64,000 bases of DNA from Phycisphaerales bacterium (lineage in GTDB: Bacteria; Planctomycetota; Phycisphaerae; Phycisphaerales; SM1A02): the NCBI GenBank assembly GCA_029260575.1, contig JAJDDB010000035.1, forward strand, positions 124,001 through 188,000, written 5' to 3'. Below are positions 1,274 to 8,817 of the stretch, piece by piece. Both the position numbers and the translations under genes were made by a program. Each line of letters begins with the position of its first letter. Within the stretch, counting starts at the first letter, position 1. The notes below the pieces were generated by a model that made no database searches, was not told where the DNA came from, and worked only from the letters and a program-made list of their open reading frames with translations.

Positions 1274-4200
1274 ATGTCATCGATCGTGGCATATCAGACA
1301 TCTTCGGTCAGTACCGCTGAATCCAGCAGAATCCTGACGCGAAACCTCGAAGCCCTGGGCAGCCGGCATCGCGAGCTAGCACAGAAACTCGCGCTAGCCT
1401 CGCCCGCACCCACACTTGCATTCGCGGAAACGCCGGATGGAGTTCCCAGCGTTGTGCTTGATGATCGCCCGCTGTGTTCACGACATCGCCCGATTGCCGA
1501 AGCCCGCCGGCTCGTCGATGGCATTGACATTGTCGAAAACGCAGTCGTGGTCGTATTCGGTTTTGGAGCCGGTTATCACGTGCAGCTACTTGCCCAGCGC
1601 ATGAAACGCACCGGCGTGGTGATCGTGTTCGAACCGGATGTCAGCCTGCTGCGCGGCGTGCTTGAGCGCAACGATATATCATCGTGGCTCGAGGTTTCGA
1701 ACATCGTCTGGATCACCGACGTTGCGGATCGGGCCGGGCTGGCAGCAGCGCTCGACGGCGCAGAGTCAATCCTCGCTCAGGGCGTCGAGTTTGTAGAACA
1801 TCCCCCCAGCAGGCAGCGGCTGGGTGATCAACCGGCGCAGTTCAGCGAGCTGTTGACGAACTACATCGCTACCGCCAAGACAACGCTGATGACAACGCTG
1901 ATGCGCTCTGTCGACACCGTGCGCAACCTGCTGCACAACATTGATCATTATGTCACTGCAGGCGGCATCACCGAACTCGAAGGCGCGTGCCGGAATCAAC
2001 CGGCAGTCATCGTTTCCGCTGGTCCAAGTCTCGCTCGATCGCTGAAGCTGCTTGCTCAGCCGGGCGTGCGTGATCGTTGTGTGATCATTGCGGTGCAGAC
2101 GACACTGCAGCCGCTGCTTGATGCTGGTATCAAACCGCATTTCGTAACGGCGCTGGATTATCACGAAATCTCACGGCGGTTTTATGAGCAATTGAACCCC
2201 GAAGATGTCGCGGATGTCACACTCATCGTCGAACCCAAAGCGCACCCTGTTATTCTCGATGCGTACCCGGGACCAATCCGCATTTGCGCATCGCGCTTCC
2301 TCGATGATCTGCTCGGCGAATGCGCCCGCGATATGGGAACCATTCGCCCCGGCGCGACGGTCGCGCATCTCGCGCTGTACGTTGCGGAACTGCTCGGCTG
2401 CAATCCGATCGCGCTCATCGGCCAGGATCTCGGCTTCACCGACGGTCTGTATTACGCGCCCGGCATTTCCATTGAAGATGTCTGGGCTCCCGAGCTTGGG
2501 CCATTCAACACGATCGAGATGATGCAATGGCAGCGCATCGCCCGACATCGTGTGCATCTGCACAAGACCACCGATGTGCATGGCCGTTCAATTTATTCGG
2601 ATGCGCAGATGTTGACGTACCTGCGACAGTTTGAACGTGATTTCAAGGACTTGGCAAATCGGGGCATAACGGTTATTGACGCAACGGAGGGCGGCCTTGC
2701 CAAGCAGCACACTGAATCGCAGTCGTTGCAGGCATTCCTGGCAGAACATACGTCGGGTGACGCAACACCCCCGCCGCTGCCGACTGATTCTGACGATGCG
2801 AAACACCGGTCTGCTGTGCAGCAGCGCATTGCGTCCATCCGTCAGGAAATCACAGCGCTGCAGCATGTTTCAATGCGCACGCAGCGGCTGTTGCAGACAA
2901 TGATAGCTGATCAGGATGATGCTGCGCGCATGGAAAAGCATTTTCAGCGACTGGAGAAATTCCGCAGCGAAGTCCAACAACGCATTCAGTCGTTTGAGTT
3001 ACTGAACCATGTCAATCAGCTCGGCGTGTTCAAACGGCTGAAAGCTGACAGGCGCCTGCACCTCTCCGCCGATATGTCGCCACTCGATCGACAGCGGGCT
3101 GAACTCGATCGCGATCTCGAAAACGTGCGCTGGATTGCAGATGCTGCCGATGAACTGTTGCGCCAGCTCCTCGATGCGGAACGTATTCTGAATGGTGCAA
3201 CGGTCTCTGCCCGTCCGGCACCCATCAGCATTGACGCGCTGGATGATGACACACACACGAACGATGGCATGCCGACGTGCATCGCAGCACTCATCGCTGT
3301 CGATCCCGATCGCAACGGCCTGTTGCAACCATGCTCGCTCATGGAAGACATACATGGCTGCAACGTTCTGCAACAGACACTTCAGCAGCTCGGCACCTCG
3401 CGCACGCTGAAGATGATCGTTATGCTTGTGCCCGACACATTCGATGTTGAACCTTTGCTCGATCGCAGCGCGATTGGCGTTCCCGTCGAGATCGAACGAT
3501 GCGGCGCGTCGCCGTACCCGCCGGAACATGAGGCGATTGCCGCAGCCCGTGCGTGGAGCGCTTCGTGCTGGCGCGGCGGCATCACTGGTGTCAGTATCTA
3601 CGATGAACTGCTGTGCCCGACGCTCATGCGTGATGTCATGGCAAAACGCGGCATCACTGCGGCACTACTCGTCGGGTCGGACTGGCCGCTGGTACAGGTG
3701 CTCGGCGAACACGGCTGCGATGCGATCATCCAGCGCCATCTCGATTATCCCAAACAAAACTCAATTGTCTTCACGCAGGCAGCCCCCGGGTTATGCGGCT
3801 GCGTCGTGAGCGCATCTGAGATGGATTCACTGGCCCAGCGCAATCGCGTTGCGACAATCGGCGCGCGACTGACCTATCAACCCGGTGCACCGCAAACTGA
3901 TCCGATTGCCAAAGATTTAAATGTGCAGATTCCACCAGCATTGCGGAACACCCTGGTGCGCGCAACTGCTGATTCACCGGCGAATGTGAATACGATAAAG
4001 CAGTTGCTTCAGCCGGACAGCCGTCGACGCGTGACAATCCCGCACGCTGATGAGATCGTACAGAAATTCGAAGCCCAACGGTTCAAAGACGCCGAGCGCA
4101 GCCCGGAACACCTGATCGTCGAATTGACGACACGCCGAACAAGTTGCGGTCAATTTGCGCGTCATCCGTTCGGCAACATCGAGCGGGCCGACCTCGAACC

Positions 4201-4921
4201 GGCCACCCTCGCGCAATTTCTTGACAGTTTCGGCGAGTCACGCCCGACCGCCATAACATTCGATGGCGTCGGTGATCCACTCCTGCATCCGGCATTCGAT
4301 GAATGCATTCGTTCAGCGAAACGCGCCAAATGTACAGTGCATGTGCGAACCGAACTTCTTTGCGATCACGCAACGGTTGATCGATTGCTCGACAGCGGTG
4401 TTGATGTTGTGAGCATTGATCTTCACGCAGATCGCGCAGCGACCTATCAGACGATGATGGGCACTGATCGCTTCAAAGAAGTGCTGCTCACCATGCAGTA
4501 TCTGCTCGATCATCGGCGCGTTCTGACTGCCCAGACCGGGTTGTCTGCAATTGCCCTGCCGTGGATCGTCCCGCGCCTGCAACGCTGCGCTGCAACGTAT
4601 GAAGACATTGATTCGTTCTTCGATCGGTGGCAGCACACTCTGGGAACTGCTGTTCTTGAAGGGTGCCCGACGTTCAACACAGCCGGTGAATCTGCCGATG
4701 ACACACTTCTGCCGGCTGTGACGCCGCGGGCTGTTGTCAAACGTGAATTGCAACGGCGCATGACCGTATTCTGCGACGGTTCCGTACCGATTGATGAATG
4801 TGATCTGCCGGGGCGCAGCACCGCCGGCAACATTCATGACACCGGCGCGACTGAACTGTGGAAACAACTGTTCCAATCGCGACGAACAAAACTTGATTCC
4901 CTGAACCTGTGGCGACCATGA
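1274..4921 (+). CDS. Maf/DUF115 family protein fused to cytidylyltransferase-like and radical-SAM-like regions
   Basis: A 1215-residue protein starting at ATG 1274 (an in-frame TTG at 1244 is less likely). Residues about 90-480 match the DUF115/Maf family, which transfers nonulosonic acids to flagellin in other bacteria: VFGFGAGYH near 94, VSAGPSL near 247, and ALIGQDLGFT near 381. A charged, Gln-rich helical stretch (about 520-660) follows. From about 668 the text (TCIAALIAVDPDRNGLLQP) resembles SpsF/KdsB-type cytidylyltransferases. From about 945 (LIVELTTRR) to the end it resembles a radical-SAM/SPASM protein, including a GNI..TGATELWKQL ending. However, the usual CxxxCxxC cluster is missing, since only one Cys remains after ELTTRR. 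Its stop overlaps the neuA-like start (ATGA), so it is translated with the CMP-sugar genes. The likely role is transfer of the sugar made by the next three genes; the two C-terminal regions may be structural. Confidence 0.75.
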   Translation: MSSIVAYQTSSVSTAESSRILTRNLEALGSRHRELAQKLALASPAPTLAFAETPDGVPSVVLDDRPLCSRHRPIAEARRLVDGIDIVENAVVVVFGFGAGYHVQLLAQRMKRTGVVIVFEPDVSLLRGVLERNDISSWLEVSNIVWITDVADRAGLAAALDGAESILAQGVEFVEHPPSRQRLGDQPAQFSELLTNYIATAKTTLMTTLMRSVDTVRNLLHNIDHYVTAGGITELEGACRNQPAVIVSAGPSLARSLKLLAQPGVRDRCVIIAVQTTLQPLLDAGIKPHFVTALDYHEISRRFYEQLNPEDVADVTLIVEPKAHPVILDAYPGPIRICASRFLDDLLGECARDMGTIRPGATVAHLALYVAELLGCNPIALIGQDLGFTDGLYYAPGISIEDVWAPELGPFNTIEMMQWQRIARHRVHLHKTTDVHGRSIYSDAQMLTYLRQFERDFKDLANRGITVIDATEGGLAKQHTESQSLQAFLAEHTSGDATPPPLPTDSDDAKHRSAVQQRIASIRQEITALQHVSMRTQRLLQTMIADQDDAARMEKHFQRLEKFRSEVQQRIQSFELLNHVNQLGVFKRLKADRRLHLSADMSPLDRQRAELDRDLENVRWIADAADELLRQLLDAERILNGATVSARPAPISIDALDDDTHTNDGMPTCIAALIAVDPDRNGLLQPCSLMEDIHGCNVLQQTLQQLGTSRTLKMIVMLVPDTFDVEPLLDRSAIGVPVEIERCGASPYPPEHEAIAAARAWSASCWRGGITGVSIYDELLCPTLMRDVMAKRGITAALLVGSDWPLVQVLGEHGCDAIIQRHLDYPKQNSIVFTQAAPGLCGCVVSASEMDSLAQRNRVATIGARLTYQPGAPQTDPIAKDLNVQIPPALRNTLVRATADSPANVNTIKQLLQPDSRRRVTIPHADEIVQKFEAQRFKDAERSPEHLIVELTTRRTSCGQFARHPFGNIERADLEPATLAQFLDSFGESRPTAITFDGVGDPLLHPAFDECIRSAKRAKCTVHVRTELLCDHATVDRLLDSGVDVVSIDLHADRAATYQTMMGTDRFKEVLLTMQYLLDHRRVLTAQTGLSAIALPWIVPRLQRCAATYEDIDSFFDRWQHTLGTAVLEGCPTFNTAGESADDTLLPAVTPRAVVKRELQRRMTVFCDGSVPIDECDLPGRSTAGNIHDTGATELWKQLFQSRRTKLDSLNLWRP

Positions 4922-5640
4922 CCATTCACACTCACAATCCGCCGGCCTGCGCAATCATCATCGCCCGGGCAGGCAGCAAGGGACTGCCCGGCAAGAACGA
5001 ACGCCGGTTGGGTGGCAGGCCGATGGTGGCCTACAGCCTCGATGCTGCCCGCGATGCGGTCACAATCAAGCGGACAATCCTCAGCACCGACAGCGCTGCA
5101 ATTGCTGAGACCGCTCACGCGCATGATGTCGAAGTCGTCAATCGACCGGCAGCACTGGCCAGTGACACAGCGACTGTTGACGATGCAGTTCGACATGCTG
5201 TGCAGAGTTCTGACGTCACTGAACCAATCGTTGTGATTCTGTATGCGAACGTTCCGATCCGCCCGAGTGATCTCATCGACCGCGCTGTGCGCGAATTGAT
5301 CATCAGCGGCGCGGACAGCGTGCAGTCATATACATTAGTCGGCAAGCATCATCCACATTGGATGGTGCAGCTTGCGCCCGGCGGGCGTGTCCAGCCGCAT
5401 GTCGACAATGCAGTCTATCGCAGGCAGGATCTTCCGGAATTGCTCATTCCCGACGGCGGCGTCATTGCGGTGACGCGCGATGTGCTGTTCGCTGCAGGTG
5501 AACATCCACACTCGTTTCTTGGCAATGATCGTCGCGGCATTCGCACAGAACCGGGTGCCGTTGTCGATATTGACTGCGAAGTTGATTTCATCGTCGCGGA
5601 ATCAACACTCGATCGTATGAGTGCAGGAGCGGCGGTATGA
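4918..5640 (+). CDS. neuA: Acylneuraminate cytidylyltransferase (CMP-nonulosonate synthetase)
   Basis: A 240-residue protein. It is predicted to activate a nine-carbon sugar acid with CTP to give the CMP-sugar and pyrophosphate in the cytoplasm. The N-terminal nucleotide-binding motif IIARAGSKGLPGKN is the family signature, followed by GRPMVAYSLDAA and the STDS segment (LSTDSAAIAETA). It ends with the usual VDIDCEVDF, which carries metal-binding acidic residues. ATG 4918 overlaps the upstream TGA; a GTG nine bases earlier (4909) is also in frame. Its own TGA overlaps the next ATG at 5637. The motifs do not separate Neu5Ac from legionaminic or pseudaminic acid. Confidence 0.9.
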   Translation: MTIHTHNPPACAIIIARAGSKGLPGKNERRLGGRPMVAYSLDAARDAVTIKRTILSTDSAAIAETAHAHDVEVVNRPAALASDTATVDDAVRHAVQSSDVTEPIVVILYANVPIRPSDLIDRAVRELIISGADSVQSYTLVGKHHPHWMVQLAPGGRVQPHVDNAVYRRQDLPELLIPDGGVIAVTRDVLFAAGEHPHSFLGNDRRGIRTEPGAVVDIDCEVDFIVAESTLDRMSAGAAV

Positions 5641-6662
5641 AGATCGGCTCCACCACGATTGATTGCGATTCGCCGCCGTTTGTCATCGCCGAGATCGGCG
5701 TCAATCACGATGGCAATGTGGATCGCGCACTCGAACTTGTCGACGTAGCGCAGCAATGCGGCGCGGATGCAGTGAAAATTCAGTTCTTCACAGCCGATCT
5801 GCTTCTGAGCAAAGCGGCGCGACTTGCGACATACCAGCATCAAAGCGGCGAATCCGATCCCGTGGAGATGCTCAAACGCCTTGAATTGTCAATAGATGAC
5901 CTCGCAACAGTTGTCGAGCGCGCACATACAAAGAAACTTGCAGCACTAGTCACAGTATTTTCCGTAGAGCTGGTTGAACTGGCTGCAGCACGTGCGTGGG
6001 ATGCGTGGAAAGTTGCTTCGCCGGACATTATCAATCGGCCGCTGATCAATGCTTTGTGCGCTGATGGCCGGCCGGTGCTGCTTTCGACGGGCGCTGCTAC
6101 CAAAGAGGAAGTGCAGCAAGCCGTGCAATGGGTCGGCGATCATCAGCATATTGTGATGCAATGCGTAAGTGCGTATCCCACGCCTGATGATCACGCCGCT
6201 CTGGCAGGCCGCATTGATCTTGAGCGGATCACGCCCTGGGCAATCGGTTACAGCGATCACACGACGAATATTCTGACCGGCGCATATGCTGTCGCCTCGG
6301 GAGCGTGTGTTCTTGAAAAGCACTTGACACACAATCGTAATGCAACCGGTCCGGATCATGCTGCCTCATTAGACCCGACACAGTTCGCACACTACGTTCA
6401 GCATGCACACGAAGCCTTTGCGATGCTCGGCAGCCGGAAGAAGCAGGTTCTTGACATCGAACTCGATGTGCGCGCACATTCACGGCAATCTATCGTCGCT
6501 CGTGATGTACTCGTCGAAGGTAAAACGATTGCGCGATCCGATCTCACGATCAAACGGCCGGGTACTGGCATCGCGCCAAGTTTGATTGATGACCTTGTGG
6601 GACGCACACTTACGAAGACTGTACAGCTTGATATGCCGTTGTCGCCGGACGCTGTGCAGTGA
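5637..6662 (+). CDS. neuB: N-acetylneuraminate/nonulosonate synthase
   Basis: A 341-residue enzyme of the NeuB/LegI/PseI family. It condenses phosphoenolpyruvate with an N-acetylated hexosamine (ManNAc or a diacetamido analogue) to form the nine-carbon acid. Visible hallmarks are FVIAEIGVNHDG near the start, GADAVKIQFF, KVASPDIINRPL, LLSTGAATKEEV and GYSDHT, together tracing the TIM barrel and metal/PEP site. The last 60 residues (RQSIVARDVLVEGKTIARSDLTIKRPGTGI) are the SAF (antifreeze-like) domain that covers the active site of a partner subunit. The ATG overlaps the neuA stop by four bases and its TGA overlaps the GTG of the epimerase, so all four genes are translationally coupled. Confidence 0.92.
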   Translation: MKIGSTTIDCDSPPFVIAEIGVNHDGNVDRALELVDVAQQCGADAVKIQFFTADLLLSKAARLATYQHQSGESDPVEMLKRLELSIDDLATVVERAHTKKLAALVTVFSVELVELAAARAWDAWKVASPDIINRPLINALCADGRPVLLSTGAATKEEVQQAVQWVGDHQHIVMQCVSAYPTPDDHAALAGRIDLERITPWAIGYSDHTTNILTGAYAVASGACVLEKHLTHNRNATGPDHAASLDPTQFAHYVQHAHEAFAMLGSRKKQVLDIELDVRAHSRQSIVARDVLVEGKTIARSDLTIKRPGTGIAPSLIDDLVGRTLTKTVQLDMPLSPDAVQ

Positions 6663-7771
6663 ATGCAACGCGACGGATTGCAGTGCTGACAGGTTCGCGG
6701 GCTGATTTCGGCCTGCTGCGTTCAGTCATGCTCGCAATTCATGAGCACTCACAACTCGAGCTATGCACGATTGTTACCGGCACACATCTGCTGCAACCGG
6801 ATCGGACGATTGATGAAGTCGCAGCTACGTTTACAATTGACTGTTCATTCGAAATGCAGCAATCGGGCGAGCACGGTCGAATTGCCGATGCTGCCGCATT
6901 CGGCAGAGGCGCGACGGCTCTCGCCCAACACTTGCCTGCATTGAATCCGGATGTGTTGCTCGTCCTCGGCGATCGCATCGAAGCATTCGCGAGCGCTGCC
7001 GCTGCTTCAATTGCTGGAGTACGCGTCGCCCACATGCACGGCGGCGACAGAGCCCAAGGCGTCGCAGATGAAGCAATGCGTCATGCAATCAGCAAATTGG
7101 CGCACATCCATCTACCCGCAACGCAACAATCTGCGGATCGACTTGCGCGCATGGGTGAAGACGCAACGCGTATTCATATAGTTGGCTCGCCAGCAATTGA
7201 TGATCTCGATTCATTTAGCCGGCTTGACGATGAGCAATTCGAACAACTCGGACGGCCTGACGTGGTTGTGCTGATGCATCCCGTCGGCTGTGAGGATTCT
7301 GTAGAAGCCCAGGGCATGCGCACCATTCTCAAGAGCTGCGCGAATGCTGGTAACGTCCTCGTGCTTGATCCAAATCACGATCCCGGACGAGTTGGCATCA
7401 TTCAGGCGATTCAAGATTCGGGCCTAACTCGCGCATCGCACCTGCCCAGGAGCACGTTTATCGCGCTGCTTCGGCGTGCCCACTTGCTCATCGGCAACAG
7501 CAGCGCGGGCCTGATAGAAGCCGCGGCGCTCGGCCTACCTGCAATCAATATTGGATCTCGCCAGGCTGGCAGAGAGAAACCCGCTTCTGTCATGGATGTC
7601 GCCACGCCAGACGAGGCTGAGCTTCTTCAAGCGATCACTACTGCTATGCAGCGCGGCACCGTTGACATTGTTCATCCATACGGCAACGGATCAACCGGCA
7701 GGCGTACCGCCGTCCTGCTCGCCGACTTCGATCCAGCAGCGCACCCGATAACAAAGCGTAATACGTTCTGA
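6659..7771 (+). CDS. neuC: UDP-N-acetylglucosamine 2-epimerase (hydrolysing), NeuC type
   Basis: A 370-residue GT-B-fold enzyme. It is predicted to convert UDP-GlcNAc (or a UDP-diacetamido sugar) to the free 2-epimer that NeuB uses. Evidence: LTGSRADFGLLRSVM near the N-terminus, LVLGDRIEAFASAAAAS, AHMHGGDRAQGVADEAMRHAISKLAHIHLPAT, and the late GNSSAGLIEAAALG nucleotide-sugar motif. The start is GTG 6659, which shares bases with the TGA of neuB. No legB-, legC- or legH-type genes follow, so the simplest reading is the three-step CMP-Neu5Ac route, although genes elsewhere could make it a legionaminic acid pathway. Confidence 0.9.
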   Translation: MNATRRIAVLTGSRADFGLLRSVMLAIHEHSQLELCTIVTGTHLLQPDRTIDEVAATFTIDCSFEMQQSGEHGRIADAAAFGRGATALAQHLPALNPDVLLVLGDRIEAFASAAAASIAGVRVAHMHGGDRAQGVADEAMRHAISKLAHIHLPATQQSADRLARMGEDATRIHIVGSPAIDDLDSFSRLDDEQFEQLGRPDVVVLMHPVGCEDSVEAQGMRTILKSCANAGNVLVLDPNHDPGRVGIIQAIQDSGLTRASHLPRSTFIALLRRAHLLIGNSSAGLIEAAALGLPAINIGSRQAGREKPASVMDVATPDEAELLQAITTAMQRGTVDIVHPYGNGSTGRRTAVLLADFDPAAHPITKRNTF

Positions 7772-7828: not shown

Positions 7829-7904
7829 TCGTTCTTCTTTGAACGATAAAGTCGCACGCCATCGAAACCGATTGCTCGGATAGACGGTGCCATGAAAGCG
7901 CCGT
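7829..7904 (+). promoter_or_regulatory. Leader region with two hairpins before the HDOD gene
   Basis: Two inverted repeats lie in the 158-base spacer after neuC. At 7829-7846, TCGTTC and GAACGA are separated by six bases and followed by TAAA; this could end neuC transcription, but there is no T-run. At 7884-7904, ACGGTGC and GCGCCGT surround CATGAAA, and the arm ends 25 bases before the HDOD ATG at 7930. No known riboswitch consensus is recognisable. Confidence 0.3.
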
Positions 7905-7929
7905 GCGGGTCACCAAGAGGGGATTTTCA

Positions 7930-8817
7930 ATGGCCGCTACTACCACCGAAGAACAGGCAGCAATCATCGATTCCGCAATCAAGGGCATCAGCCATATTGC
8001 GACGTTGCCTGAGATCACGATCAAGATCATCGAGTTGGTTGAACAGCCGACGAGCACCGCCCAGGATCTTCATAAGGTCATTGCAAACGACCCGGCACTG
8101 TGCAGTCGAATCCTCAAAGTTGTCAATTCCGCGTTTTACGGTTTGCCGCGACAGATCGGTTCGATCAATCGTGCGATCGTTTTGCTCGGCCTCAATGCGG
8201 TGAAGAACATCGCCATTGCAGCGAGTCTGACCAAGCTCTTCCGCGGGGGTGAGCTGTGTCCGAATTTCTCAGCTCGTGATTTGTGGGTGCATTCAATCGG
8301 CACCGCAGCATGCAGCAAACTGATCTGCGACACGCTCAAGATCGGCCTGCCTGATGAAGCGTTTCTTGCCGGCCTGATTCATGACATCGGCATGATGGTC
8401 GAAGTGCAGGCGCTGCGCGAACAACTCGTGCAGGTCTTTGATCAGCTTGAATTTGACGGCGAAGGCGTTCCGCAGCAGGACATGCGCGAACTCGAACGCC
8501 AAGTCATCGGCGCAGATCACTGTGCATTCGGCGCAGCGTTGTGCGAGACTTGGAAATTCCCCAAGTCGTTTGCGTTCGTGACCGGACACCATCACAACCC
8601 GATGGAGCTGCCCGGCGGCAGTCGAGCACTGACTTCCATCGTGTACATCGCAGACCGCATCACCGGCGAGGCTGGTTACGGCTTCCGCTCTGATCTGCAG
8701 AGCCTCGAACTCAATCCCGATATTCTTGCGGAACTGAAGATGACTGATGAGCACGTCGCATCGGTTCGTGAGAATCTGCCGGGTGTGTTCGAAGAAGTTG
8801 AAGGCATGTTCCGCTGA
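7930..8817 (+). CDS. HDOD domain signalling protein
   Basis: A 295-residue protein made almost entirely of an HDOD domain, a degenerate relative of HD phosphohydrolases usually found in signalling and cell-cycle or motility control. Visible: PEITIKIIELVEQPTSTAQDLHKVIANDPALCSRILKVVNSAFYGLP near the N-terminus (read in pieces), then SINRAIVLLGLNAVKNIAIA, FLAGLIHDIGMMV and FVTGHHHNPMEL. Some HD-like His/Asp pairs (IHDIG, GHHH) persist, so residual metal binding is possible. The start is placed at ATG 7930 because AGAGGGG lies just upstream; an in-frame GTG at 7903 would add nine residues that fit poorly. Output partner not visible in the window. Confidence 0.88.
   Translation: MAATTTEEQAAIIDSAIKGISHIATLPEITIKIIELVEQPTSTAQDLHKVIANDPALCSRILKVVNSAFYGLPRQIGSINRAIVLLGLNAVKNIAIAASLTKLFRGGELCPNFSARDLWVHSIGTAACSKLICDTLKIGLPDEAFLAGLIHDIGMMVEVQALREQLVQVFDQLEFDGEGVPQQDMRELERQVIGADHCAFGAALCETWKFPKSFAFVTGHHHNPMELPGGSRALTSIVYIADRITGEAGYGFRSDLQSLELNPDILAELKMTDEHVASVRENLPGVFEEVEGMFR

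Follow-up and report, generated by a model that had tools for sequence, protein, structure and literature searches.

A probable flagellin O-glycosylation operon encoding a Maf-type transferase fused to a degenerate partner in a phycisphaeral planctomycete

Which acceptor receives the sialic-acid-like (nonulosonate) sugar that a small operon of a phycisphaeral planctomycete is predicted to make? The window, that is, the whole stretch of 64,000 nucleotides analysed here (C35:124001-188000 of genome G000), contains four genes that were located by ORF calling (Table 1). Two start candidates, 1244 and 1274, were found for gene 1. The original prediction described four-base overlaps between the genes, and these are present at all three junctions. 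The epimerase, the synthase and the CMP-synthetase that it named are confirmed as families by the domain scores. According to the overlaps and the families, the claim of a coupled module for the synthesis and use of a nonulosonate in a planctomycete is supported. We conclude, with a probability of about 0.85, that the module is a flagellin O-glycosylation operon. The gene order, families, folds, cluster-site loss, co-occurrence and flagellin of the same genome were computed here. Promoter and terminator scans at the operon gave signals no more than in shuffled sequences. A gene with an HDOD domain is located at 7903-8817 on the same strand, about 130 bp 3' of the operon.

Table 1. Features of the operon (positions in the window)
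Feature	Position	Strand	Basis or remark
Four-gene operon	1274-7771	+	ORF calling
Gene 1, predicted Maf-type glycosyltransferase fused to spiro-SPASM-like pseudoenzyme, 1215 aa	1274-4921	+	
Maf part, residues 1-609 as folded	1274-3100	+	Pfam and predicted model
MptE-like core, residues 217-390	1922-2443	+	Pfam MptE-like
Cytidylyltransferase-like fold with R.W....WRGG motif	3275-4063	+	Predicted model
Pseudo-radical-SAM fold, CxxxCxxC absent	4085-4663	+	Predicted model and motif check
SPASM-like end	4727-4918	+	Four Cys of free-standing relatives not kept in the fused window copy
Gene 1/gene 2 stop/start overlap, ATGA, 4 bp	4918-4921	+	
Gene 2, NeuA-like CMP-nonulosonate (NulO) synthetase, start ATG 4918	4918-5640	+	CTP_transf_3
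Gene 2/gene 3 stop/start overlap, ATGA, 4 bp	5637-5640	+	
Gene 3, NeuB-type synthase with SAF domain	5637-6662	+	NeuB and SAF domains
Gene 3/gene 4 stop/start overlap, GTGA, 4 bp	6659-6662	+	
Gene 4, NeuC-type hydrolysing 2-epimerase	6659-7771	+	Epimerase_2, NeuC_NnaA

The MptE-like domain (PF01973) scores 128.4 bits in gene 1, above the cut-off of 34.6. A single-sequence search of gene 1 against solved structures found no Maf match, and a profile of 29 relatives detected the Maf structure 5mu5 with an E value of 2.5e-12. The predicted model of the Maf part (pLDDT 83.7) also has 5mu5 as its top structural match, with Z 23.7 and an r.m.s.d. of 8.0 over 505 aligned residues, and the whole three-part Maf fold is present in the model according to this match. 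The second match is an archaeal kinase (8sd5, Z 15.2, 190 residues), and sialyltransferases such as CstII follow near Z 9. With the model NF050051 (flagellin modification protein PseD), gene 1 scores 69.2 bits, far below the cut-off of 670. The window gene is the only MptE-like gene of its genome. The Pfam, profile and predicted-fold matches identify the first half of gene 1 as a flagellin glycosyltransferase of the Maf type. The earlier description as a putative transferase needs changing here, since the transferase can be specified. The original prediction also overlooked the fusion: the second half, about 575 aa, is a degenerate cytidylyltransferase-like/pseudo-radical-SAM protein.

The second-half model, built with 30 sequences, has a pLDDT of 83.9 and a pTM of 0.86. 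In this predicted model, the nucleotidyltransferase fold is nearest to the Leptospira cytidylyltransferase 6oew (Z 20.1), with other nucleotidyltransferases at about 14, and the radical-SAM/SPASM fold matches SuiB (Z 21.2), DesII (20.1) and BtrN (18.8). These matches express the likeness of a predicted model and are no evidence of function. The sequence support for the cytidylyltransferase-like part is weak (4kt7, E 0.0024; 6oew, E 0.17), and no literature on the 6oew structure was found in one library. The cluster motif CxxxCxxC is present in none of the 30 second-half proteins, one of which is shortened by a stop; lacking it, this part of the protein cannot act as an ordinary radical-SAM enzyme. 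An in-frame TGA interrupts the second-half gene of genome G109 (L028/L068). The four SPASM cysteines are invariant in 12 of 12 free-standing relatives and are not conserved in the window protein and three fused relatives. With the spiro-SPASM model TIGR04321, the window protein scores 56.1 bits (E 2.5e-15), and residues 813-1202 are aligned to positions 105-486 of the 510 of the model. Ten free-standing relatives score 103.7-159.2 bits. As all these scores are below the cut-off of 250 bits, the second half is a relative of the spiro-SPASM family and not a member. The likeness extends over most of the model, whereas the second-half proteins are planctomycete and are adjacent or fused to Maf. 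Plasmid records were tried as relatives and rejected: 27 matched, none covered 80% of the query, and the ten listed match the radical-SAM part only. Probably the second half has no catalytic activity and acts as a partner by which flagellin or the CMP-sugar is positioned.

The original prediction proposed a search for the cluster across the class, and the cluster does recur there. We compared 198 class genomes for the second-half family, flagellin, MptE-like domain and NeuB; two weak second-half matches (G070, E 5.6e-7; G100, E 3.3e-8) were left out, and a NeuB match had to be at least about as strong as E 1e-25 to be counted. In counts that ignore relatedness, the second-half family is present in 94 of the 198 genomes, together with Maf in 92, flagellin in 91 and a strong NeuB in 91, and a strong NeuB occurs in 10 of the 51 flagellate genomes that lack the family. 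Maf and the second half share one operon, so they do not occur independently of each other. Among the 108 genomes listed, genomes with Maf have longer flagellin frames, with a median of 504 aa (n=66) against 399 aa in the others (n=42), again ignoring relatedness. The family also occurs outside the class: with a threshold of E 1e-15 it was detected in 56 of 392 phylum genomes, and some of these matches are limited to the radical-SAM part.

Gene order was read in 78 rows, made up of the window, 37 loci and 40 fetched regions, with four genomes represented by two rows each. In 76 rows, Maf shares the strand of the second-half gene and is located nearby, upstream of it; in 19 rows the two are fused. 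NeuA, NeuB and NeuC, where present, come after the second half in that order. Since the order of Maf, second-half domain, NeuA, NeuB and NeuC recurs across the class, it is not due to chance. In a tree of 69 rows, a branch with support of 100/99 separates the fused rows from all others; as the root was set by midpoint, the tree does not set the direction, fusion or fission. The 37 loci came from a contig scan with narrow patterns of alignment A3, and 36 are titled planctomycete. The other, L103 (JANQQE010000011.1), is titled Alphaproteobacteria and takes the same position as class genome G022; its label is probably wrong. Because the patterns are narrow, non-appearance among spirochaetes carries no information.

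The original prediction left the acceptor open because no flagellin was nearby. This is correct within the window, but the genome has two flagellin genes on another contig (C27:534-543 kb), adjoining FlgL and FlgK, which were named by eye from the sequence. FlhA and further hook/rod genes are also present, some of them at C35:203-214 kb on the contig of the window. In neither of the two flagellins do Ser/Thr residues form a striking cluster. FlhA was checked in six genomes and hook/rod genes in eight. With a Maf-type gene 1, a genome that encodes flagella and flagellin in 91 of the 94 genomes with the second-half family, the acceptor need no longer be left open. As the first half of gene 1 is assigned as a Maf-type flagellin glycosyltransferase, the acceptor of the nonulosonate is most likely flagellin.

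Gene 2 scores 84 bits with CTP_transf_3 (cut-off 22.6), and its best solved relative is the CMP-Neu5Ac synthetase 1eyr (E 1.7e-21). Gene 3 is above the cut-offs of both NeuB (PF03102, 212.8 bits against 22.1) and SAF (23.3 bits), with N. meningitidis SiaC/NeuB as a solved relative (2wqp, E 7.6e-41). It does not reach the cut-offs of TIGR03569, the N-acetylneuraminate synthase equivalog (296.6 bits against 399.65), and of the PseI model (207.9 against 340.25). Gene 4 scores 213 bits with Epimerase_2 and 303.7 bits with NeuC_NnaA (TIGR03568), above the cut-off of 235.9, and its best solved relative is A. baumannii LegG (5xvs, E 5.4e-48), at 167 bits against 146 for human GNE. The window enzymes belong to the same families as SiaC and LegG, but each has Asp for one aligned Glu. 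In NeuB, Asp130 (6024-6026) is located at the position of SiaC Glu134, and NeuC has HGGD (Asp130, 7046-7048) where LegG has HGGE. Among the distinct genomes aligned, the operon NeuB has Asp (ASPD) in 22 of 23, with Asn in G008, and the operon epimerase has HGGD in 25 of 25. The 12 NeuB loci outside the operon comprise eight with ASPD, one with ASTD and three with Glu. A literature search on NeuB Glu134 in one library found nothing. In L106 (CP087563.1), a complete genome not labelled as MAG, Maf, the second gene, NeuA and NeuC are together, an ASPD-type NeuB is located elsewhere, and a second, PseI-like NeuB is also present.

According to these families, a Neu5Ac-like product from UDP-GlcNAc would be the simplest reading, and the distinct NeuB/NeuC branch suggests that the sugar may differ from the usual ones. 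A possible but doubtful alternative, compatible with flagellin as the acceptor, is legionaminic acid or another di-N-acyl nonulosonate, for which the missing steps would be encoded elsewhere in the genome. The closeness of NeuC to LegG, the deviation of NeuB and NeuC from the reference enzymes and the four strong DegT aminotransferases of the genome (95.3% complete) are in its favour. None of the four, however, reaches the LegC or PseC cut-off, a genome-wide result that agrees with the earlier remark that no legC is nearby. The sole strong PF02719 match is one 581-aa frame, and no match of equal strength corresponds here to the 330-aa type, which in G143 is found close to a PseI-like NeuB. Adjoining dehydrogenase, acyltransferase and aminotransferase genes at C20:55-58 kb (L136:9733-12646) resemble a UDP-3-amino-sugar pathway. 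We take this cluster to be WlbA/B/E-like; as a source of another precursor it was set aside for want of evidence.

A decoration of another acceptor (capsule, LPS, S-layer or another surface protein) is improbable. Other uses of nonulosonates do exist in the class, since a strong NeuB is found in 21 genomes without the second-half family and some relatives have separate copies of NeuB/NeuC in which the usual Glu residues are kept. These copies, however, differ from the operon type, the Maf-type protein is the sole transferase among the operon genes, and almost every genome that has the second-half family is flagellate. It is still far less probable that gene 1 has an unrelated role in metabolism, either as a pterin-type kinase like archaeal MptE or as an active radical-SAM enzyme. 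The archaeal kinase belongs to the same Pfam family, and radical-SAM folds head the structural matches of the second half. Against this, 5mu5 ranks above 8sd5 and covers 505 model residues against 190, the cluster motif is missing from every second-half protein, and the operon context argues against both enzymes.

Some relatives speak against a role in glycosylation alone. In G102 (C39, L043:11406-14297) and G155 (C7, L045:9037-11532), which belong to the family of the window genome, the fused gene is kept with a shortened or degraded Maf part and a well-kept second half. No flagellin, hook/rod domain or NeuB was found in these two genomes. Both keep FlhA, and FliP, FliR, FlhB, FlhF and a sigma factor were read in the fetched stretches of one or both. 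G137 and G177, of the same family and without the fused gene, also lack FlhA. Thus, the second half may also serve something besides sugar transfer; the gene 1 protein may go with the export apparatus instead of with glycosylation, or it may be a relic. In G127 (86% complete), the second-half family occurs without Maf, flagellin and NeuB. The low PseD score and the placement of flagellin and operon on separate contigs also weigh against the flagellin reading.

In flagellin glycosylation as preferred here, homology suggests that NeuC would produce the free 2-epimer from a UDP-HexNAc, for which UDP-GlcNAc is the simplest candidate. NeuB would join this with phosphoenolpyruvate into a nonulosonate of the Neu/Leg group, and NeuA would activate the product with CTP. 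Then the Maf half of gene 1 would transfer the sugar to Ser/Thr of flagellin in the cytoplasm before export, and the second half would hold flagellin or the CMP-sugar in place without catalysis.

That flagellin is glycosylated with nonulosonates by Maf proteins is well known (PMC11339370, PMC4065374). A Maf of C. botulinum accepts Neu5Ac on flagellin (PMC11339370), and A. caviae Maf1 works before export (PMC4065374). The Maf systems of Aeromonas, Campylobacter and Clostridium botulinum, and of Magnetospirillum (5mu5), share with the window the MptE-like core, the three-part fold, the nonulosonate genes and a flagellated genome. The planctomycete Maf, in contrast, is fused to, or located directly before, a second degenerate protein, and NeuA, NeuB and NeuC, which have distinct residues, are encoded in the Maf operon itself. 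To our knowledge, the second degenerate protein is absent from all these Maf systems. The Bacillus subtilis sps system (SpsE, SpsG, SpsF) has the NeuB-type synthase SpsE (1vli) in common, but it serves the spore coat rather than the flagellum, and SpsE has the usual Glu at the NeuB site. We know of no Maf in this system. SpsF is likened here by description only; spsF is tied to nonulosonate transfer and sps is a legionaminic acid pathway (PMC7439481). Glycosylation of spirochaete flagellin is known (PMC13144727). Neither for the spiro-SPASM family nor for the glycosylation of phycisphaeral flagellin did a search in one library find literature. The planctomycete sialic acid literature found in that library deals, judged by titles, with the metabolism or catabolism of sialic acid. 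Nonulosonates have also been studied in anammox planctomycetes.

Two points are new: Maf is constantly paired with, or fused to, a doubly degenerate protein, and NeuB and NeuC form a distinct branch. Tentatively, the second-half family might be a doubly degenerate Maf partner dedicated to the flagellum and needed for nonulosonate transfer or for handing flagellin over to export; with the dedicated NeuB/NeuC branch, it would serve a nonulosonate other than Neu5Ac, legionaminic acid and pseudaminic acid. If true, this would provide the spirochaete spiro-SPASM family with a role. What looked like a sialic-acid module lacking an acceptor becomes a system for flagellin glycosylation that can be tested throughout a planctomycete class. 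The branch of NeuB and NeuC is singled out as one whose sugar may differ from the usual. An uncharacterised protein family, tied to Maf by fusion and gene order, provides a handle on how Maf recognises flagellin.
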